From a virus, in the IMG/VR virus record IMGVR_UViG_3300044591_002222, positions 1 to 30,612 of that record: a stretch of DNA of 30,612 bases; one strand, 5' to 3'. Position numbers and translations under genes: made by a program. Of this stretch, positions 11,958 to 19,136 are shown piece by piece; within the stretch, counting starts at the first letter, position 1, and every line of letters starts with the position of its first letter. The notes beneath the pieces are model-generated. The model did not search any database. It was not told where the DNA came from and worked only from the letters and a program-made list of their open reading frames with translations.

Positions 11958-12131
11958 TCAATCTGTGCGTTCGGTGAGAATAACTTCGTTTCCTTCAATT
12001 TTAAAGGCAATTTCAGTATCTTCATACCATGAGAGTTCATTCGCCACAATCTCAGGAATAATCACATAATATTCACCAGTAATTGGATCGACCTGTACAG
12101 ACTCAAAAATTTCCCCGGAATTTTTTTTCAT
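11958..12131 (-). CDS. AbrB/SpoVT-like small protein, 57 aa
   Basis: The protein starts MKKNSGEIFESVQVDPITGE. It continues YYVIIPEIVANELSWYEDTEIAFKIEGNEVILTE, a pattern matching the swapped-hairpin AbrB core: hydrophobic V-x-I-P, then helix, then W-x-x-x-T-x-I-x-F, then E-G-N-x-V-I-L. AbrB-like domains bind DNA as dimers or act as antitoxins. No toxin gene is adjacent; the next gene downstream is the glycosyltransferase. It sits at the border between the late structural block and the accessory region. The fold call is from pattern only. Confidence 0.7.
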   Translation of the reverse strand: MKKNSGEIFESVQVDPITGEYYVIIPEIVANELSWYEDTEIAFKIEGNEVILTERTD

Positions 12132-13355: not shown

Positions 13356-13368
13356 AAGGGGGTAGTTT

Positions 13369-13605
13369 GTATAAAGAATTAAGAATCAATCCGGATTAGA
13401 AAGTATAAAGAATTAAACAACGATTGCAAAGTATAAAGAATAACTGTCCATTGAGAAGTCCATTGTAATTAGAATTAACCACACCACTGACTATAACAAT
13501 TACAATGAACTTCTGAATGGAGAGTATAAGAATAAAGAACTGATAAAGTATAAAGAATTAAGAACTAGGTGTGATTCATTCTTAATTCTTTATATTTTAT
13601 ACTTT
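13369..13605. repeat. AT-rich repeat region with a near-perfect inverted repeat
   Basis: No gene is seen between 13245 and 13615. AAAGTATAAAGAATTA or close variants occur directly at about 13369, 13400, 13428, 13521 and 13545, and inverted at 13579-13605. Inside the array, 13447-13470 and 13498-13521 form a 24-nt inverted repeat with only two mismatches around a 27-nt loop. The pattern resembles iterons or a large cruciform. Function is unknown. Confidence 0.75.
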
Positions 13606-13615
13606 CATTCTTCAT

Positions 13616-13783
13616 TCATTTAATTAACTCTGCAGGTGATCCACAAGACTTATAGAATGCGATCATACGTTGCGCCTCATCTAATGTTGTGAATGATTGT
13701 GTGCGCCATTCACATTGATTGTATGGTGTCTGATACCTAATTGTGAACCCGATTGAATTAACTGGGCGTGAATTGTTGTGCAT
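13616..13783 (-). CDS. Conserved small protein, 55 aa
   Basis: The protein begins MHNNSRPVNSIGFTIRYQTP and contains the segment YNQCEWRTQSFTTLDEAQRM then FYKSCGSPAELI. It resembles a small family recalled from cyanophages (I-R-Y-Q-T-P-Y-N-Q-C-E-W-R-T core with a C-terminal helix). The beta-beta-turn-helix pattern is compact and no catalytic site is obvious. Its upstream region (13784-13899) holds four TCTMGWCKAGA palindromes, so it is probably controlled by that regulator. Confidence 0.8.
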   Translation of the reverse strand: MHNNSRPVNSIGFTIRYQTPYNQCEWRTQSFTTLDEAQRMIAFYKSCGSPAELIK

Positions 13784-13785
13784 GA

Positions 13786-13893
13786 ATCTAGATGTGAATG
13801 TATGTGATGATGATGTGCATCTAGACGAGATGTGAATGTGTGTGTCTCGTCTAGATGTGTGTGCGCGTCTAGTCTAGACTAATCTAGACTAGA
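13786..13893. promoter_or_regulatory. TCTMGWCKAGA palindrome cluster I
   Basis: Exact copies of the self-complementary 11-mer TCTMGWCKAGA lie at 13820-13830, 13845-13855, 13868-13878 and 13883-13893, with ATCTAGAT at 13786-13793. All are 37-110 nt upstream of the ATG at 13783. The last part, 13870-13891, forms a 9-bp stem with a 4-nt loop and is followed on the plus strand by GATTTTTTT, so it could also end plus-strand transcripts. Confidence 0.75.
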
Positions 13894-13899
13894 TTTTTT

Positions 13900-14055
13900 T
13901 CAATAATGATGCTTTGACATCACACAATTCGGATCATTGTACCATTCAGAATCCTCATAAGATTCTGTCATTCTGACAATAAGATCGTCGGATAAATTGC
14001 ACATTCCAGTTGTAACTAATTGCAGGATTTCGTCGGGAGTGAGAAAGGTTTGCAT
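13900..14055 (-). CDS. Hypothetical protein, 51 aa
   Basis: Start chosen at ATG 14055 (MQTFLTPDEILQLVTTGMCN) because further upstream the frame enters the terminator hairpin at 14077-14099. A helical N-terminal half is followed by an acidic tail (LIVRMTESYEDSEWYNDP). No known family. The stop codon abuts the palindrome cluster I hairpin. Confidence 0.65.
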   Translation of the reverse strand: MQTFLTPDEILQLVTTGMCNLSDDLIVRMTESYEDSEWYNDPNCVMSKHHY

Positions 14056-14076
14056 TGTGAGAAAAGTGTAGAGAAT

Positions 14077-14099
14077 GGGAGGGGGGATCGAATCCTCCC
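14077..14099 (-). terminator. Hairpin between the 99-aa and 51-aa genes
   Basis: Arms GGGAGG and CCTCCC pair around an 11-nt loop, just beyond the stop of the gene ending at 14108. The tail (CATTCTCTAC) is only weakly T-rich. Confidence 0.45.
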
Positions 14100-14107
14100 G
14101 TATTGTA

Positions 14108-14407
14108 TCATCCCTGAATCCAGCGGGCGATCCGCTCACGCTTGCGGAGCGGTAGAAGGCGAGTGTATTCAACCCAGCGGGCGCCCAGTTCGTGGCGCTT
14201 GATCAGTCCCTGTGCTGCCATACGCTTCAGGGTGATGGAGAGGGCGGTACGTGCCTCGTTGGACATCCCCAGCGCAGCATTGATGTCGGTGGGGCGCATC
14301 CCATCCTGATCAGTGCAATCGCTGCCATCATCCATCGGCAGAACCGACAGGATCGCCCATTGGTAGGTTGCGCCGAATGCTTTGCGGTTGGTGAGAGTGG
14401 TGAACAT
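14108..14407 (-). CDS. Winged-helix-like small protein, 99 aa
   Basis: Residues 10-90 resemble a winged helix-turn-helix: a helix with AFGATYQWAILSVLPMDD, then RPTDINAALGMSNEARTALSITLKRMAAQGLIKRHELG, where the A-L-G-M-S turn and the recognition-helix pattern L-x-x-M-x-x-x-G-L-I-K-R are typical of MarR/ArsR-like folds. The tail WVEYTRLLPLRKRERIARWI is basic. It could be a transcription factor for either of the two palindromic motifs in this window, though nothing in the sequence proves that. It has its own palindrome module upstream. Confidence 0.6.
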   Translation of the reverse strand: MFTTLTNRKAFGATYQWAILSVLPMDDGSDCTDQDGMRPTDINAALGMSNEARTALSITLKRMAAQGLIKRHELGARWVEYTRLLPLRKRERIARWIQG

Positions 14408-14431
14408 GGTTCAGTGGTGTGAACTGAGAGA

Positions 14432-14492
14432 ATCATACAGGCAGCATGGGGGATCCGTCTACGGGGGATTGTGCCACCTTGCGAACTGTCCA
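14432..14492 (-). promoter_or_regulatory. Palindrome-type promoter module (copy 2)
   Basis: The palindrome at 14471-14492 has halves GTGCCACCT and AACTGTCCA. A TATGAT -10-like box lies at 14432-14437 (33-bp gap), 24 nt from the ATG at 14407. The region beyond it to 14656 holds a leader-like sequence also seen near 16.1 kb and the terminator at 14625-14647, but no gene. Confidence 0.65.
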
Positions 14493-14607
14493 CTGCTGCG
14501 GTTTTATGGGTCTGGGGGGCCTGTAGGATAAGGGGACAATCGGCAAAGACGGCAGCAGGGTCGCTGCCTGATCAAAGGTCGCCACCGAACCTGCGCTGAA
14601 ATAATAG
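14471..14607. repeat. Duplicated intergenic leader, copy A
   Basis: This stretch shares ordered blocks with 16029-16167: the palindrome, GCGGTTTT, ATAAGG(GG)ACA, a short inverted repeat (here GGCAGC/GCTGCC), and the end block CGCCACCG..CCTGC..TGAAATA..ATAATAG at 14580-14607. Both copies lie between a terminator and a promoter module. Confidence 0.6.
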
Positions 14608-14624
14608 GGGAAAAAATATAAAAA

Positions 14625-14647
14625 AAGGGGAGCGATTGCCCCCCCTT
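14625..14647 (-). terminator. Rho-independent terminator after the GP88 gene
   Basis: Arms AAGGGG and CCCCTT pair around an 11-nt loop. On the minus strand the hairpin is followed by a long T-rich tract (TTTTTATATTTTTT). It lies 10 nt beyond the stop at 14657. Confidence 0.75.
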
Positions 14648-14656
14648 AAATATACC

Positions 14657-15391
14657 TTACACTGCAACGGGTTTCTTACTGTATCCGCTGAATTGATGAT
14701 TAGAACGACGGGCGCGAATCGCTTTGCCCCAGAGTGAACCTTTGGGTTGCGTTCCATGCACTAACAGCGCAAACGGTTTGTCACCAAAACAATGCGAGTC
14801 GTCGTGATCAACTTCTAAACCTGCAGCGTTTGCATCACCTTCGGTCATAAAGACTTTAGCGTAACGCTTAAACAATCCTGCATCAATTAGATGATCCCAC
14901 TTGCCACCATAAGATGCGGTGAAGTAGAAGTTAGCGGGAAGATTAAAGTTCAGAAAGAGTTGCAAACTCTTAGAGTAGCAATAGAACTTTAGGTCAGGAT
15001 TGCGGATTGCAACTTCAATCCAAGCGTCAAGATATGCACCAGAGAAAAAGTCTCCGCTCTCATGAATCCGCACCAGTTTAGTATTCTTTGTGCGGTATTC
15101 TTGAATGCCTTGATTGATAAGATCTGCAGCAGATCCATTCTGCAGAGCATCAACAATCAGGCGCAGATTGTTGGCGCGATTCTCAAATGCTGCATCATAT
15201 TGCACTTCTGAAGATGCAGCGAAGCAACGGAAAATAGTGTGCTCGCCGTCTTGAATGGTACGCTTGCCATTGTCATCAACAACAGCAAACGACTTGCAAA
15301 ATAATGCACCGGGGCAGGTTTTGCCTGCAGGAAGATTAAAGATCAGGGTTTGCTTGCCCAGTTTGGCGTTGCCTTTGGTGAAGTTCAGCAT
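14657..15391 (-). CDS. GP88-domain protein, 244 aa
   Basis: Start chosen at ATG 15391 (MLNFTKGNAKLGKQTLIFNL), since upstream the frame crosses a G/C hairpin and promoter. The sequence matches the pattern of the 'phage gene product 88' domain named after mycobacteriophage L5 gp88: N-terminal GNAKL and FNLPAGKTCPGA, then C-containing PGALFCKSFA, a helical middle, VRIHESGDFFS, and WIEVAIRNPDLKFYCYSKS. The conserved H-E-S-G-D-F-F and Cys residues suggest a metal or substrate site, but no activity is established for the family as far as I know. The gene is monocistronic with a strong terminator. Confidence 0.75.
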   Translation of the reverse strand: MLNFTKGNAKLGKQTLIFNLPAGKTCPGALFCKSFAVVDDNGKRTIQDGEHTIFRCFAASSEVQYDAAFENRANNLRLIVDALQNGSAADLINQGIQEYRTKNTKLVRIHESGDFFSGAYLDAWIEVAIRNPDLKFYCYSKSLQLFLNFNLPANFYFTASYGGKWDHLIDAGLFKRYAKVFMTEGDANAAGLEVDHDDSHCFGDKPFALLVHGTQPKGSLWGKAIRARRSNHQFSGYSKKPVAV

Positions 15392-15417
15392 GGCGGTCAG
15401 TGGTGGTTGACTTCCAT

Positions 15418-15423
15418 AGAATA
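15418..15423 (-). promoter_or_regulatory. Candidate -10 box for the GP88 gene
   Basis: TATTCT on the minus strand, preceded by TGC as at several palindrome-type promoters in this window, lies 26 nt upstream of the ATG at 15391. Only a degenerate remnant of the 22-bp palindrome (TGGGTCAC near 15476) is present at the usual distance. Confidence 0.35.
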
Positions 15424-15432
15424 GCATGGGAA

Positions 15433-15450
15433 GGGGGGGACGCAACCCCC
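15433..15450 (-). terminator. G/C hairpin after the 156-aa gene
   Basis: Six G and six C pair around a 6-nt loop, 25 nt beyond the stop at 15475. The tail (TTCCCATG) is only weakly T-rich. Confidence 0.5.
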
Positions 15451-15474
15451 CCATTGATCAGTGTTGCTTATGGG

Positions 15475-15945
15475 TCACTTCCAGAGACCTTCAGCGATCA
15501 AACGATTAACCAAAACCTGCGCTAGTTTGCCACATTCATCACATGCCTTTGCATACTTAATTTCAGAGCGCAAAGAATACTGTTCAGGGTTACGATGTCC
15601 ACCGAACTTGTAACGGTAAGATGCACTCACAACCTTAAGAAGTTGGCGCTTCTGAAGATCATCCTTTGCCAGTTTGTAGACAGGGATGAAATAGCGGAAG
15701 TCACCAATTGCACGGCAACGCTTTAGTTTGGTGACGATCATTGATGCAGCAGATGCACCAAAATAGGGAGTCAATTCTACCGTCAGAAAAGCATTGAAAG
15801 GTGCCAATTCTGCAGGTTCGTTGTTAGCAACTGGAGCAGGTTGCGTCGTTACTTCACTCAAACCAAGCAGAAAGTTTGCGATCTCAGTATAGGAACCGTT
15901 CAGGGTGACGGTGCTGCCGTTGTTGGTGATCGTGACGGTTTGCAT
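15475..15945 (-). CDS. Hypothetical protein, 156 aa
   Basis: Start chosen at ATG 15945 (MQTVTITNNGSTVTLNGSYT), because the longer frame runs through a palindrome promoter module. The N-terminus is a short beta region, followed by an acidic Ala/Pro linker (TTQPAPVANNEPAELAP), then a helical C-terminal domain with several Lys/Arg and Cys residues (YAKACDECGKLAQVLVNRL). The Cys pair (CDEC) might bind metal. No family is recognised. Confidence 0.7.
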   Translation of the reverse strand: MQTVTITNNGSTVTLNGSYTEIANFLLGLSEVTTQPAPVANNEPAELAPFNAFLTVELTPYFGASAASMIVTKLKRCRAIGDFRYFIPVYKLAKDDLQKRQLLKVVSASYRYKFGGHRNPEQYSLRSEIKYAKACDECGKLAQVLVNRLIAEGLWK

Positions 15946-16028
15946 GGTCTTGTTGGTGGTGGGCGGCGTCAGTGGTGCGCCGTTGAATGAATGATGCCAC
16001 GCCAGAACCGACCCACACCAGCGGCCTT

Positions 16029-16050
16029 GTGCCACTCTGCCAACTGTCAC
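16029..16050 (-). promoter_or_regulatory. 22-bp palindrome (copy 3)
   Basis: Halves GTGCCACTC and AACTGTCAC lie 84 nt upstream of the ATG at 15945. At the usual distance only a weak -10 candidate (CATCAT, about 15991) is seen. Confidence 0.55.
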
Positions 16051-16167
16051 ATCTGAGCGGTTTTGGTGTGGTTTTGCTGTATCTTATAAGGACAACCAGC
16101 ACCAACGGGGGAAGGGTATCCCTACTGAACAACACATCGCCACCGGTCCTGCAATGAAATATAATAG
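16029..16167. repeat. Duplicated intergenic leader, copy B
   Basis: Shares its ordered blocks with 14471-14607, including the end block at 16138-16167. It lies between the strong terminator at 16188-16211 and the palindrome. I see no gene in 15946-16304; a short unstructured stretch, 16212-16304, precedes the next gene's stop. Confidence 0.6.
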
Positions 16168-16187
16168 TATCGTTATATAAAGAAAAA

Positions 16188-16211
16188 TGGGTCAGGCACC
16201 ACCCTGACCCA
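16188..16211 (-). terminator. Strong rho-independent terminator
   Basis: A 9-bp stem (TGGGTCAGG / CCTGACCCA) with a 6-nt loop is followed on the minus strand by TTTTTCTTTATAT. It closes the unit of the 62-aa gene ending at 16305. Confidence 0.85.
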
Positions 16212-16304
16212 CAATCACCCACTCACCTACGCTATGATTATCTGTTCTCTTTCGCGCTGGGTGACTTTAACATTGAGCGACGGCAAACCCCTTCCGTCTT
16301 TGTC

Positions 16305-16493
16305 TTATAATTCTACCATCCAGTCCGCGTCTTTGTCAAGTGTTGCCCAGAAGTGATTGCGCCCATTGAGTGATGTAAGAAACACGCGATCACCCATGTG
16401 TTGCTCAATGATCACCTGTGCAACGGAATCCATCAGATTTGCAAAGCGATTCTTTGCCTTGCGCGAGATGGGTTTGACGGTTGCGAGTTCCAT
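16305..16493 (-). CDS. Small basic/helical protein, 62 aa
   Basis: Start at ATG 16493 (MELATVKPISRKAKNRFANL). The basic N-terminal helix (SRKAKNRFANLMDS) is followed by GDRVFLTSLNGRNHFWATLDKDADWMVEL, a beta-hairpin-like tail. No family is recognised. Its upstream region carries four TCTMGWCKAGA palindromes and one 22-bp palindrome, the only gene with both motifs, so it may sit under two regulators. Confidence 0.75.
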   Translation of the reverse strand: MELATVKPISRKAKNRFANLMDSVAQVIIEQHMGDRVFLTSLNGRNHFWATLDKDADWMVEL

Positions 16494-16521
16494 GATCTCG
16501 ATGTGTTTTGTATGTGTGCAA

Positions 16522-16609
16522 TCTAGTCGAGATTGTGTGTCTCGTCGAGATCTGTGGGCCACTTGTGTAACTGGCACATGGTCTCGACGAGATTGTAGTC
16601 TAGACTAGA
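16522..16609. promoter_or_regulatory. TCTMGWCKAGA palindrome cluster II
   Basis: Exact copies lie at 16522-16532, 16540-16550, 16582-16592 and 16599-16609; the last is inside the 12-nt perfect palindrome at 16596-16607. All are 29-116 nt upstream of the ATG at 16493. A copy of the 22-bp palindrome (16556-16577) sits in the middle. Confidence 0.75.
16556..16577 (-). promoter_or_regulatory. 22-bp palindrome (copy 4), inside cluster II
   Basis: Halves GGGCCACTT and AACTGGCAC, 63 nt upstream of the ATG at 16493. No clear -10 box is found at the usual 31-bp distance; that place is taken by a TCTMGWCKAGA copy. Confidence 0.55.
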
Positions 16610-16611
16610 TT

Positions 16612-16887
16612 TCAGAATTGAGTGGTTTTTACAATCTCTTCAGCGAGGTCGTTACCTACAACTCCAGCGATAAACTCCTGAGTTGCATCATCATCCTCAC
16701 CTTCTGCAACCCAAATGTCTTCAATCAACATGTCGAGATCAGTATCATTTTGACCAGGATTTTTGTCGAATGATTGATACATCATTTGGACAGCATAAGA
16801 TACAAGATCATCCATGTCCATGCTGTCAATCACACGGTAGCAGTGTGATTGGCAGAGATCAGAAATCTGTTCGGAAGTAAGAGTCAT
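16612..16887 (-). CDS. Acidic hypothetical protein, 91 aa
   Basis: Start at ATG 16887 (MTLTSEQISDLCQSHCYRVI), which overlaps the upstream stop by 4 nt (ATGA). The protein is strongly acidic and helical (DMDDLVSYAVQMMYQSFDKN; EDIWVAEGEDDDATQEFI). No domain is recognised. It is the last gene of a four-gene overlapping operon that starts at 17288. Acidic composition is compatible with a DNA-mimic or a protein-binding inhibitor, but that is speculation. Confidence 0.8.
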   Translation of the reverse strand: MTLTSEQISDLCQSHCYRVIDSMDMDDLVSYAVQMMYQSFDKNPGQNDTDLDMLIEDIWVAEGEDDDATQEFIAGVVGNDLAEEIVKTTQF

Positions 16888-17009
16888 TTTCTCAGGGGAG
16901 AATTGAAGTAACGAGTGAAGCATAGCACCAGGATGATGCCAGTGCTGATGACCCCGACCAGTCCGAGGACTGTCACAGTGTCGCCAGCGAAAGTGTAAGT
17001 GTCAGGCAT
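16884..17009 (-). CDS. Single-pass membrane micro-protein, 41 aa
   Basis: Begins MPDTYTFAGDTVTVLGLVGV and continues ISTGIILVLCF, giving one strong transmembrane helix (about residues 11-31), then a short basic tail (RYFNSPLRK). It overlaps the gene upstream by 8 nt and the gene downstream by 4 nt. Positive-inside reasoning puts the N-terminus outside. Function unknown. Confidence 0.75.
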   Translation of the reverse strand: MPDTYTFAGDTVTVLGLVGVISTGIILVLCFTRYFNSPLRK

Positions 17010-17157
17010 CTTCCCAAAGCAGGTGGATTTTGTTGCGAATAGCATAAACATCTTCTGGATCATACTCATCAGAATCCAGAGCATTACCGATGAAGTTGTA
17101 GATCAGATCCCACTGATCTTCGGTAAAGAAATCTTTGATGTTGGTGGTAGTTTCCAT
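17002..17157 (-). CDS. Acidic small protein, 51 aa
   Basis: Begins METTTNIKDFFTEDQWDLIY and continues with an acidic helical body (FIGNALDSDEYDPEDVYAIRNK). Its ATG shares one base with the stop of the gene upstream (TGATG). Translational coupling and composition support a real gene; no family is known to me. Confidence 0.75.
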   Translation of the reverse strand: METTTNIKDFFTEDQWDLIYNFIGNALDSDEYDPEDVYAIRNKIHLLWEDA

Positions 17158-17288
17158 CAGAAGTCCCAGTTGGAGTTGAGGAAAGCGTTCCAGGTGAGTT
17201 CATCATTGTCATCTTCATCCCTCATTTCAGGAATGTCGAAGATTTCACCAGGAGCATCAGCGATTTCAGTCCAGAGAGTGTCTTCCAT
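17157..17288 (-). CDS. Acidic micro-protein, 43 aa
   Basis: Begins MEDTLWTEIADAPGEIFDIP and ends LTWNAFLNSNWDF. It is the first gene of a four-gene operon running to 16612, with a palindrome-type promoter (TATACT) 29 nt upstream of the start. No family is recognised. Confidence 0.7.
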   Translation of the reverse strand: MEDTLWTEIADAPGEIFDIPEMRDEDDNDELTWNAFLNSNWDF

Positions 17289-17317
17289 GTGGTTGGAGGT
17301 GTGTGGTTGACTTTGTA

Positions 17318-17376
17318 AGTATAAGGGCACTGGAGGCGATCCTAGTGCCCTCTTGTGCCAGTTCCTATGCTGTCAC
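17318..17376 (-). promoter_or_regulatory. Palindrome-type promoter module (copy 5)
   Basis: The palindrome at 17355-17376 (halves GTGCCAGTT and TGCTGTCAC) overlaps the stop codon of the gene ending at 17365. A 31-bp gap holding an 8-bp hairpin (AGGGCACT 17324-17331, AGTGCCCT 17344-17351) separates it from the TATACT box at 17318-17323. The hairpin probably terminates the upstream gene. No TTGACA-like -35 is seen. Confidence 0.75.
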
Positions 17377-17829
17377 ATAGTTGGGGATTTCCACCCTTTC
17401 TACTGGTGCCTTGTAGTTAATCTTGAACGCCTTCCAGTTATCATTCAGATCGAAGAGATAAGCAAACTCTTCGCAAGAATTGCCAGAGACAAACTCATCG
17501 AAACTGGTATGAGTAGGATCTTCACCATCACCACGCTCCGAATGATAGAGTGGTTGAGGTTCACGATCATTCTCATACTTCAGATAACCAGCGGCGTCAT
17601 GAATATACTCTCCATTCTCATCGCGAAGAGCAGAAGAATGATCCCAAGTGCCACGAGTCCGCAGAGAACTCATAGATCCACCGTCGATGAGATCCATTAC
17701 TTTTTCGCGATCCTGATAATGCTCTACCAGAATCCTACCATTGCCTGTAGGATAACCATCCCAGTGGCAGTAGACGCTAACCACAGTGTGATTGCCAAGT
17801 TCGATTCCGATGCGTGAGCGAGTTCCCAT
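17365..17829 (-). CDS. Conserved phage protein with HWDGYP motif, 154 aa
   Basis: Begins MGTRSRIGIELGNHTVVSVY and has CHWDGYPTGNGRILVEHY, a motif I recall from a conserved phage and bacterial family of unknown function (S-x-x-G-I-x-L at the start, then V-Y-x-H-W-D-G-Y-P). The following DLIDGGSMSSL is also typical. The C-terminal half (FAYLFDLNDNWKAFKINY) is beta-rich. The length fits the family. It has its own promoter module upstream. Confidence 0.8.
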   Translation of the reverse strand: MGTRSRIGIELGNHTVVSVYCHWDGYPTGNGRILVEHYQDREKVMDLIDGGSMSSLRTRGTWDHSSALRDENGEYIHDAAGYLKYENDREPQPLYHSERGDGEDPTHTSFDEFVSGNSCEEFAYLFDLNDNWKAFKINYKAPVERVEIPNYVTA

Positions 17830-17854
17830 GGTGTTGTGAGTGGTGAACGAGTTC

Positions 17855-17913
17855 AGTATGGCAGGGGATCACGGATTCCGCAACCCCCTGGTGGACAGTT
17901 CAGAAACCGTCCA
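17855..17913 (-). promoter_or_regulatory. Palindrome-type promoter module (copy 6)
   Basis: The palindrome at 17892-17913 (halves TGGACAGTT and AACCGTCCA, one mismatch) overlaps the stop of the gene ending at 17900. CATACT at 17855-17860 lies 31 bp away and 25 nt from the ATG at 17829. A G/C hairpin lies between. Confidence 0.65.
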
Positions 17914-18067
17914 TTGCGTCTTCCAGAGCACAGATCAGGCCGTCGAAGTCCTCTGATGCAGGAAGAACACTGGTCAGAGTGTACACCAGATCCTTGCCGT
18001 ATTCCTCAGCAAGTTCGTTCAGGTACTCCTTCCGATTGGCGTAACCGTTCTCAGTGTAGATGCTCAT
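17900..18067 (-). CDS. Small acidic protein, 55 aa
   Basis: Begins MSIYTENGYANRKEYLNELA and continues helical and acidic (EEYGKDLVYTL; EDFDGLICALEDAMDGF). The stop overlaps palindrome copy 6. Likely monocistronic. No family is recognised. Confidence 0.7.
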   Translation of the reverse strand: MSIYTENGYANRKEYLNELAEEYGKDLVYTLTSVLPASEDFDGLICALEDAMDGF

Positions 18068-18108
18068 GGTGAAAAAAGCAAATGAGGTGGTCTCTCAACC
18101 ACGTCCCC

Positions 18109-18167
18109 AACATAAGGCATCAGATCCAGATAGGTCAATAGGTAGTGGACAGTCTCATAAGTGGCAC
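18109..18167 (-). promoter_or_regulatory. Palindrome-type promoter module (copy 7)
   Basis: The palindrome at 18146-18167 has halves TGGACAGTC and AAGTGGCAC. A TATGTT -10-like box at 18109-18114 is 31 bp away and 41 nt from the ATG at 18067. It lies 12 bp from the first TTTTCCACA box. Confidence 0.65.
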
Positions 18168-18179
18168 AAGATCATTGAG

Positions 18180-18245
18180 TTTTCCACAGACCTGTGGAAA
18201 AACCTGTGGAAAACTCATCAAATTGTGGAAAACTTTTTTTCCACA
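18180..18245. promoter_or_regulatory. Cluster of five DnaA-box-like sites (TTTTCCACA)
   Basis: Perfect TTTTCCACA or its complement occurs at 18180-18188 (+), 18193-18201 (-), 18205-18213 (-), 18224-18232 (-) and 18237-18245 (+). TTTTCCACA is the DnaA-box form reported for cyanobacterial oriC. By simple base-frequency arithmetic, about 0.2 copies would be expected in the whole window. With two more copies at 19117-19136 they bracket an origin-like region. Confidence 0.75.
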
Positions 18246-18266
18246 GGCAATCACCATACTGTTACA

Positions 18267-18419
18267 TCAGTACCAATCATAAGAATCTTTAATGGTAACA
18301 TAGACATTCTCATCACCTTCAAGTTCCAATAACTCTTTCCAGTCCATGTCCTCTACGTTCAGATCATCATAACACTCAATATCAAGTGTGACTCGTACCA
18401 GGCGCTTCTGTGCTAACAT
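18267..18419 (-). CDS. Conserved small protein, 50 aa
   Basis: Begins MLAQKRLVRVTLDIECYDDL and continues DMDWKELLELEGDENVYVTIKD. The R-V-T-L-D-I-E-x-Y-D-D start and D-W-x-x-L-x-x-L-E-G core resemble a micro-protein family I recall from cyanophages. It sits between the DnaA-box cluster and palindrome cluster III. A short beta-alpha-beta protein, function unknown. Confidence 0.75.
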   Translation of the reverse strand: MLAQKRLVRVTLDIECYDDLNVEDMDWKELLELEGDENVYVTIKDSYDWY

Positions 18420-18447
18420 GATTCTTGTGCGATGTGATTACATTCTA

Positions 18448-18588
18448 TCATGCATAATGACGATATGCAAGCGTTTCGTAATCTTGCCCGTCGCGTGTGT
18501 ATTCCTCATCGAGTTCCTGTGTGTACTCGTCGAGATCCTGCCCATAATCGTTGCTGTATGTATAGTCTAGATCGTAGTCGTCGTACAT
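18448..18588 (-). CDS. Very acidic Tyr-rich protein, 46 aa
   Basis: Begins MYDDYDLDYTYSNDYGQDLD and ends with an arginine-containing tail (DYETLAYRHYA). About half the residues are Asp, Glu or Tyr. It is preceded by a TATAAT box (18618-18623) and by cluster III palindromes, one of which lies 2 nt upstream of the ATG. Part of the coding sequence (18525-18535) itself contains a one-mismatch copy, read as Asp-Leu-Asp-Glu. Composition resembles acidic inhibitor or DNA-mimic proteins, but no family is known. Confidence 0.6.
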   Translation of the reverse strand: MYDDYDLDYTYSNDYGQDLDEYTQELDEEYTRDGQDYETLAYRHYA

Positions 18589-18734
18589 AACTCGTCGAGA
18601 TCCTGTGGTACTGTGTGATTATAGCATAATTCTCGACGAGATGCAAGTATGATGCTCAGGTCTCGTCGAGAATCATGATTCTATATATGCAATCTCGACT
18701 AGATTTGTGTGCTTTTGTGAACATCTCGTCTAGA
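18525..18734. promoter_or_regulatory. TCTMGWCKAGA palindrome cluster III
   Basis: Exact copies lie at 18631-18641, 18661-18671, 18693-18703 and 18724-18734. One-mismatch copies (ACTCGTCGAGA) lie at 18525-18535 and 18590-18600. The last four starts are 30-32 bp apart, about three DNA turns. A TATAAT box on the minus strand at 18618-18623 lies 7 bp from the copy at 18631, so a bound protein would sit in the promoter spacer. Confidence 0.8.
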
Positions 18735-18801
18735 TCTTATAAGAATTGCATATATTATGAAGTCTTATGGGGGGTTTTGGGGCGCTCGCGGGGGTGGGGG
18801 C

Positions 18802-18830
18802 TTGACAAACTGCGCGTCTTATGCTAAACT
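18802..18830 (+). promoter_or_regulatory. Consensus sigma-70 promoter, plus strand
   Basis: TTGACA at 18802-18807 and TAAACT at 18825-18830 are 17 bp apart, an ideal spacing for a host-type housekeeping sigma factor. It is the only strong plus-strand promoter I see, and it drives transcription into the tandem-repeat array and on to the zinc-ribbon gene at 19202. The 40 bp upstream are G-rich. Confidence 0.8.
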
Positions 18831-18845
18831 CCCTTAACTTGCATA

Positions 18846-19100
18846 AGAACTGAAGGTTTCTATAAGGTTTCTATAAGGTTTATAAGAAGTTTACACTGAA
18901 GGTTTCTATAAGGTTTCTATAAGGTTTATAAGAAGTTTACACTGAAGGTTTCCATAAGGTTTCCATAAGGTTTATAAGAGGTTTATAAGAGGTTTATAAG
19001 AGGTTTCTATAAGGTTTCTATAAGGTTTATAAGAAGTTTACACTGAAGGTTTCCATAAGGTTTATAAGAGGTTTATAAGAGGTTTACAAGGTATTATAAG
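18846..19100. repeat. Nested tandem-repeat array (TATAAGGTTT units)
   Basis: Short units of about 11-12 bp (AAGGTTTCTAT, AAGGTTTAT, AAGAGGTTTAT) alternate to form a longer unit. Two 46-bp units that are perfect copies start at 18850 and 18896, then expanded and degenerate units start at 18942 and 19043. The array lies directly downstream of the plus-strand promoter and contains stops in the frames I read, so it is probably a non-coding transcribed or replication-related repeat. Confidence 0.8.
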
Positions 19101-19116
19101 ATACTAATTTTTATAG

Positions 19117-19136
19117 TTTTCCACAGTTTTTCCACA
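19117..19136 (+). promoter_or_regulatory. Two DnaA-box-like sites at the right edge of the array
   Basis: TTTTCCACA occurs at 19117-19125 and 19128-19136 in the same direction, 11 bp apart, immediately before the AT-rich tract. They match the five sites at 18180-18245. Confidence 0.65.

Follow-up and report, generated by a model that had tools for sequence, protein, structure and literature searches.

The stretch of DNA analysed here, called the window, is an entire IMG/VR virus record (IMGVR_UViG_3300044591_002222) of 30,612 bp; the record is a fragment of a virus genome, so that absence from the window refers to this fragment only. It encodes T4-like baseplate proteins with Synechococcus phage S-SRM01 as the nearest relative (67% for gp6), and over part of the region the DNA of the two is 80% identical. 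Judging from these matches, the window is a fragment of a T4-like cyanophage related to S-SRM01. It carries three clusters (I to III) of the self-complementary 11-mer TCTMGWCKAGA, which had been noticed in a first-pass annotation made from the letters alone. All 12 exact copies lie where that annotation had placed them (Table 1), compared with a mean of 0.05 copies in dinucleotide-preserving shuffles, none of which reaches 12. The one-mismatch copies reported at 18525 and 18590 are real, and two further ones had been overlooked, at 18561 (TATAGTCTAGA) and at 16594, the latter overlapping the exact copy at 16599. The statement that no copy lies outside the clusters holds for the 30.6-kb fragment, as exact and one-mismatch copies are all confined to them; in a scan of the window, two-mismatch matches outside the clusters occur only at chance level. 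As had also been claimed, each cluster is located upstream of one open reading frame (ORF) on the minus strand, with starts at 13783, 16493 and 18588, and the exact copies of cluster III follow each other at start-to-start distances of 30, 32 and 31 bp. The genes concerned in the window are all encoded on the minus strand.

The clearest arrangement is found in cluster III, where the minus strand from 18646 to 18618 reads TTGCAT-CTCGTCGAGAATTATGC-TATAAT and thus presents a sigma-70-type promoter with a palindrome in its spacer. The corresponding promoter of S-SRM01 is TTGCAT-CTCGACGAGCATTATGC-TATAAT, with the centre base of the site changed, and that of Prochlorococcus phage P-SSM2 is TTGACA-ATCTCGACTAGATCTGG-TATAAT; in G003, another array-bearing genome, the site lies against the -10 hexamer, unlike the spacer register of the window, S-SRM01 and P-SSM2. 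The near-copies at 18525 and 18561 fall within the first ORF of the cluster III unit (MYDD ORF), in which the former is translated in frame as L-D-E, and the one at 18590 immediately precedes its start codon. On the minus strand of cluster II a TACAAT hexamer (16597-16592) is placed between two sites and shares a T with one of them. No clear sigma-70 promoter was seen at cluster I of the window.

Table 1. Sites, genes and promoters at and around the three clusters (positions in the window; aa, amino acids)
Feature	Position	Strand	Remarks
57-aa AbrB/MazE-like protein	11958..12131	-	candidate regulator
55-aa gene behind cluster I	13616..13783	-	
Cluster I	13820..13893		four exact sites (13820, 13845, 13868, 13883) and a degenerate one at 13787; in the gap from the stop of ORF 13900-14055 (-) to the start of ORF 13616-13783 (-)
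99-aa winged-helix protein (weak MarR_2)	14108..14407	-	second, weaker candidate regulator
62-aa gene behind cluster II, phrog_1653	16305..16493	-	function not known
Cluster II	16522..16609		four exact sites (16522, 16540, 16582, 16599); upstream of ORF 16305-16493 (-)
50-aa second gene of the cluster III unit, phrog_12516	18267..18419	-	function not known
46-aa ORF (MYDD...LAYRHYA) behind the cluster III promoter	18448..18588	-	
Cluster III	18525..18734		exact sites 18631, 18661, 18693, 18724; one-mismatch sites 18525, 18561, 18590
Sigma-70-type promoter TTGCAT-N17-TATAAT	18618..18646	-	site 18631-18641 lies in the spacer, immediately follows the -35 hexamer and shares the last T of that hexamer
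Divergent sigma-70-like promoter TTGACA-N17-TAAACT	18802..18830	+	without a site; partly read by eye from the sequences

Arrays of the same palindrome are widespread in viral sequences, with more than 200 array-bearing loci in IMG/VR. A pair search of this database, in which two CTCGWCGAG-type copies had to lie 4 to 34 bases apart, yielded 86 stretches with centre bases A then T, 87 with T then A and at least 120 with the same centre; the altered inverted pair used as a control was found in 0 IMG/VR stretches. Bacterial and archaeal genomes (257 Gb) gave 12 scattered paired-site matches, none of them in a record named as cyanobacterial. Since the arrays are widespread in viral contigs and almost missing from these genomes, the feature belongs to phages, and it is common to phages of Prochlorococcus, marine Synechococcus and freshwater Synechococcus. 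S-SRM01 carries arrays at all three matching positions, partly with different letters, while S-T4 and P-SSM2 each carry a single array, the counterpart of cluster III. The array of S-T4 is part of a stretch occurring at both ends of its record, and S-SKS1 shows an array in reduced form. The concentration of copies seen in the window recurs in other cyanophages: S-SRM01, S-T4, P-SSM2 and G003 keep nearly all their exact copies inside one to three arrays, and in the 252-kb genome of P-SSM2 all four are found inside 140 bp. No exact copy is present in S-CRM01, S-PM2, S-SM2, S-RSM4, Bellamy, S-CAM7, ACG-2014f, Sf-CH5 or DSL-LC02.

From 722 unique sites we obtained the consensus aaTCTCGWCGAGAtt, whose centre base may be either A or T and shows no constant orientation. 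Within individual sites, the symmetry-related letters 4 and 8 of the palindrome show covariation (odds ratio 4.5, p 7e-10, uncorrected for ancestry). Distances between neighbouring sites peak at 31-32 bp and again at 22-24 bp; a simple phase test for helical periodicity gave a broad maximum near 9 bp and no exact phasing beyond these two peaks. In the reduced array of S-SKS1 (150700-151500), full palindromes are replaced by many successive half-sites ACGAGAT in the leader and the first ORF, and from this series the half-site CGAGA may be the binding unit.

Regarding the position of the arrays relative to genes, which were called with a gene finder trained on the long ORFs of the loci, we found that 1410 sites are intergenic and 77 lie in called genes. 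Among 213 arrays with near flanking genes, 163 are placed between tandem, 47 between divergent and only 3 between convergent genes, and for 210 of the 213, one or both flanking genes point away from the array. Exact TATAAT hexamers are enriched at fixed distances from the sites. For promoters near arrays with no more than two mismatches from consensus, dereplicated at 70% identity (n = 77), the site starts at -16 to -18 relative to the -10 hexamer in 29 cases and at +5/+6 in 15, most other registers being represented once or twice. In the first register the palindrome occupies the spacer and follows immediately on the -35 hexamer; in the second it begins on the last T of the -10 hexamer. The register thus varies between lineages yet stays on the core promoter.

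The genes recurrently found downstream of arrays are the MYDD ORF, phrog_12516, phrog_1653, the 55-aa gene of cluster I, and GIY-YIG and HNH endonuclease genes (labelled from sequence reading and the S-SRM01 annotation); apart from the endonucleases, they are without known function. The commonest gene of the array-bearing loci is phrog_12516 (158 of 235), and 93 of its 118 unique upstream regions contain a sigma-70-like promoter overlapped by a site. GIY-YIG genes carry sites on sigma-70-like promoters in 6 of 11 cases, and as they are unrelated to the other downstream genes, they lend independent support to the arrays being operators. In Sf-CH5, Bellamy and S-SM2 the phrog_12516 gene has a promoter without an array, so that the promoter is otherwise shared and the array has been either gained or lost. 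The MYDD gene is likewise kept behind an array-free promoter in Sf-CH5; because of this retention both genes look like regulated genes, and neither was kept as a candidate for the regulator itself. In S-SRM01 an HNH endonuclease gene, encoded on the opposite strand, occupies the place of the 55-aa cluster I gene; this replacement (locus L005, 4957-5510) leaves the array in convergent position, among the rare exceptions.

We consider it probable that the palindromes are operators of a dimeric, repressor-like DNA-binding protein at early, host-sigma-70-type promoters of T4-like cyanophages. Operators had been one proposal of the first-pass annotation, and it is favoured by the promoter register, the position upstream of genes and the spacing peaks; it is well supported at cluster III and fits less well at clusters I and II, which mostly lack a canonical promoter. 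A palindrome between the -35 and -10 hexamers, or over the -10 hexamer and the start, in promoters near consensus argues for a repressor that competes with polymerase, and the additional copies, three helical turns apart, suggest that binding is cooperative. At cluster III one site fills the spacer behind the -35 hexamer, and another lies downstream of the expected transcription start and ahead of the start codon, with further sites about 31 bp (three helical turns) apart upstream and the two near-copies in the first ORF. With these sites occupied, RNA polymerase would be unable to reach the promoter or to escape from it, neighbouring dimers could bind cooperatively, and the result would be the shut-off or tuning of a small set of presumably early genes of function not known. 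At the promoterless arrays within operons (clusters I and II), the bound protein could act as an elongation block, as proposed for the stoperators of mycobacteriophage L5.

Several observations weigh against operators as the general explanation. A sigma-70-like promoter is present in only 5 of 21 orthologous regions of cluster I and 10 of 34 of cluster II, so that canonical promoters are rare at both. The arrays are so dense that overlap with a promoter is by itself nearly meaningless, and only the fixed register counts; moreover, the counts ignore shared ancestry apart from the dereplication. Neighbouring copies in cluster I arrays lean towards complementary centre bases (27 complementary, 11 same), and some positions of neighbouring copies covary strongly, as a hairpin predicts. 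Finally, no single phage-encoded regulator was found to co-occur with all arrays in the loci and records compared.

A more specific version of the operator reading, which we put forward only tentatively, is that the phage encodes its own dimeric regulator, possibly of AbrB/MazE fold and replaced by other proteins in some lineages, which would shut off a small early regulon through the operator arrays, with sites even in coding sequence, and which could also silence a further phage of the same kind that infects the cell. By co-occurrence the best candidate is the small AbrB/MazE-like protein encoded at 11958-12131, a lead and not an answer. Members of its family match PF04014 in 14 of 29 cases (best E 2.6e-5) and the AbrB model TIGR01439 (NCBIfam) in 9, while the protein of the window itself matches neither. 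Its AlphaFold2 monomer model (predicted local distance difference test score, pLDDT, 83; predicted template modelling score, pTM, 0.50) shows a swapped-hairpin fold, for which the top PDB matches are AbrB, MazE and SpoVT, with E no better than 0.03. Of 64 array loci containing gp25, 62 encode the protein; it is also encoded in 15 of the 20 array-bearing records, compared with 1 of the 10 array-free ones (p 0.001, uncorrected for ancestry). There are exceptions in both directions: a close homologue is absent from the array-bearing G001, G003, L097 and L137, and Sf-CH5 has the protein and lacks arrays. Despite the strong co-occurrence we therefore did not accept it as the proven regulator. The winged-helix protein was rejected, being present in only 13 of 233 array-bearing loci.

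The complementary lean of cluster I fits a reading in which the copies act as RNA, neighbouring ones pairing in the 5' leader of the mRNA as attenuator, terminator, stability or processing hairpins, with any copy able to pair with any other. Predicted folds of the leader RNA in the window contain two perfect hairpins at cluster I (z -8.0) and one nested hairpin at cluster II (z -6.6); the second pair of cluster I followed by a T run resembles a terminator on the plus strand. In relatives, cluster I arrays form perfect 9/9 pairs in 22 of 38 cases. Inner positions of neighbouring copies covary at a spacing of 20-27. Over all arrays, however, complementary centre bases are no commoner than identical ones (214 versus 250; 77 versus 78 in cluster III, and 15 versus 41 for adjacent copies of cluster II), and on this ground we rejected the idea that the motif serves hairpin formation in general. 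Pairing between copies needs no palindromic copies and does not account for the fixed -35/-10 register, in which some sites precede the expected transcript start, and the terminator-like T run is on a strand without genes there. We thus regard RNA elements as an unlikely explanation of the motif; as the complementary excess is restricted to cluster I, hairpins are not the general rule but are possible there. No Rfam family matched at its gathering score in the window. The orthologues of clusters I and II follow the stop codon of the gene before them, and CA-rich linkers of 12 to 14 bases are common in those of cluster I.

The arrays might also be taken for the binding sites of an activator that recruits RNA polymerase, notably at clusters I and II, where a -35 hexamer is lacking. 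In cluster II of the window and of several relatives a -10-like hexamer (TACAAT, TATAAT or TATACT) indeed occurs between two sites without a good -35, and multiple upstream sites at 31-32 bp would be compatible with activation. At cluster III, however, the hexamers around the site are often near or at consensus (TTGACA-N17-TATAAT); as the site lies between them, an activator would not be needed, and polymerase and protein would compete. In addition, the register moves between lineages and sites are also found downstream of the start, all of which makes activation quite improbable.

Even less credit can be given to a host transcription factor whose operators the phages would have copied. It would agree with the failure to find a phage-encoded regulator common to all arrays in the loci and records compared, but the paired sites are practically absent from bacterial genomes, the motif is shared by phages of three kinds of hosts, from Prochlorococcus to freshwater Synechococcus, and the host signals NtcA and Pho, for which cyanophages have been searched, have other sequences (PMC3037559). 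That the arrays belong to a replication origin, partition or recombination locus, with their promoter position a by-product, is very improbable and the corresponding proposal of the first-pass annotation gained little. Cluster III is surrounded by seven DnaA-box-like TTTTCCACA, tandem 11-bp repeats, an AT-rich stretch and a divergent promoter, but nothing comparable is seen at clusters I and II, at distances of 2 and 4.7 kb. No DnaA-box clusters adjoin the arrays of S-SRM01, P-SSM2 and G003, a divergent promoter also lies beside the phrog_12516 gene of array-free phages, and a genome may carry arrays in as many as three upstream regions, with convergent positions almost absent.

Operator families served by one regulator are known in temperate phages. 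In P1 (C1 sites), phiC31 (conserved inverted repeats) and SP-beta (SPBRE), a single regulator has repeated operators at a number of early promoters; those of phiC31 and SP-beta are palindromic, as are the sites described here. All three families differ from the arrays in sequence and phage group. To our knowledge, T4-like cyanophages of this kind are not known to be temperate. In T4 itself, PeSL cassettes place a promoter and a stem-loop between genes and vary among relatives. They resemble the arrays in combining a promoter with inverted repeats between phage genes, whereas the arrays consist of a short palindrome in fixed promoter register, repeated many times within an array, and do not generally form a terminator hairpin. 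The operators and stoperators of L5 and other cluster A mycobacteriophages share with the arrays the repetition of one sequence at several promoter and intergenic places, including promoterless ones (here clusters I, II and their relatives). The L5 sites are 13-mers without symmetry that a monomer binds; they follow the direction of transcription and are scattered over the genome of a temperate phage, whereas the palindromic sites described here are found in T4-like phages, densely packed into arrays at one to three places. Stoperators have been proposed to stop both initiation and elongation (PMC9283540).

T4-like cyanophages are abundant in lakes and in the sea, and their transcription control has been described mainly in terms of host sigma-70 early promoters and T4-type late promoters. 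A common operator on early-type promoters points to a dedicated, so far unnamed regulator. Sullivan et al. 2010 (PMC3037559) searched T4-like cyanophages for sigma-70, T4-type late (TATAAAT), NtcA and Pho signals; the arrays overlie promoters of the sigma-70 early type treated there, and the palindrome itself is none of the motifs searched. We found no description of it in the open-access literature on cyanophage promoters, nor with the motif strings CTCGACGAG and CTCGTCGAG combined with cyanophage. Of the genes common to P-HM2 and P-SSM2, 95% keep their time class, and cyanophage early genes peak early (PMC5082946). P-SSM2 and S-SRM01 are isolated phages with isolated hosts, so that direct testing is feasible, and the regulated genes form a defined set.

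The surroundings of cluster III look like a replication origin in their sequence, with DnaA-box-like sequences, an AT-rich stretch and tandem repeats. All seven TTTTCCACA of the window fall within 18180-19136, namely at 18180-18245 and 19117-19136. Behind the divergent plus-strand promoter, gene-free tandem repeats of about 11 bp (AGGTTTATAAG / AGGTTTCTATA) extend from 18843 to 19100; similar repeats with a similar TTGACA-type promoter were noted in S-SKS1 and G003. The origin-like features are partly present in S-SKS1 and are absent at the arrays of S-SRM01, P-SSM2 and G003. TTGACA-type promoters occur at the equivalent place in both array-bearing and array-free relatives, and the stretch GATACTAYCCAA is shared behind the divergent promoter beside the phrog_12516 gene of S-T4 (L261), Bellamy and Sf-CH5 (L480), thus including array-free phages.

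The end of the MYDD ORF (LAYRHYA, TGA; 18442-18470, minus strand) coincides with a second sigma-70-like promoter, TTGCAT-N17-TAGAAT, which is kept as TTGCAT/TTGCAC-N17-TAGAAT/TATAAT in S-SRM01, S-T4 and P-SSM2, and coding and promoter functions may share bases there. A second dyad, TGTGCCA...TGTCCA/TGTCACA or TGTGACA...TGGCACA, recurs near gene ends at about 13330, 14470, 16030, 16550, 17350 and 18160; the copy amid the sites of cluster II makes a hairpin, and the orthologues of that cluster retain this copy. Behind ORF 13616-13783, the region 13360-13620 contains repeats of AGTATAAAGAATTAAGAA with long inverted repeats.

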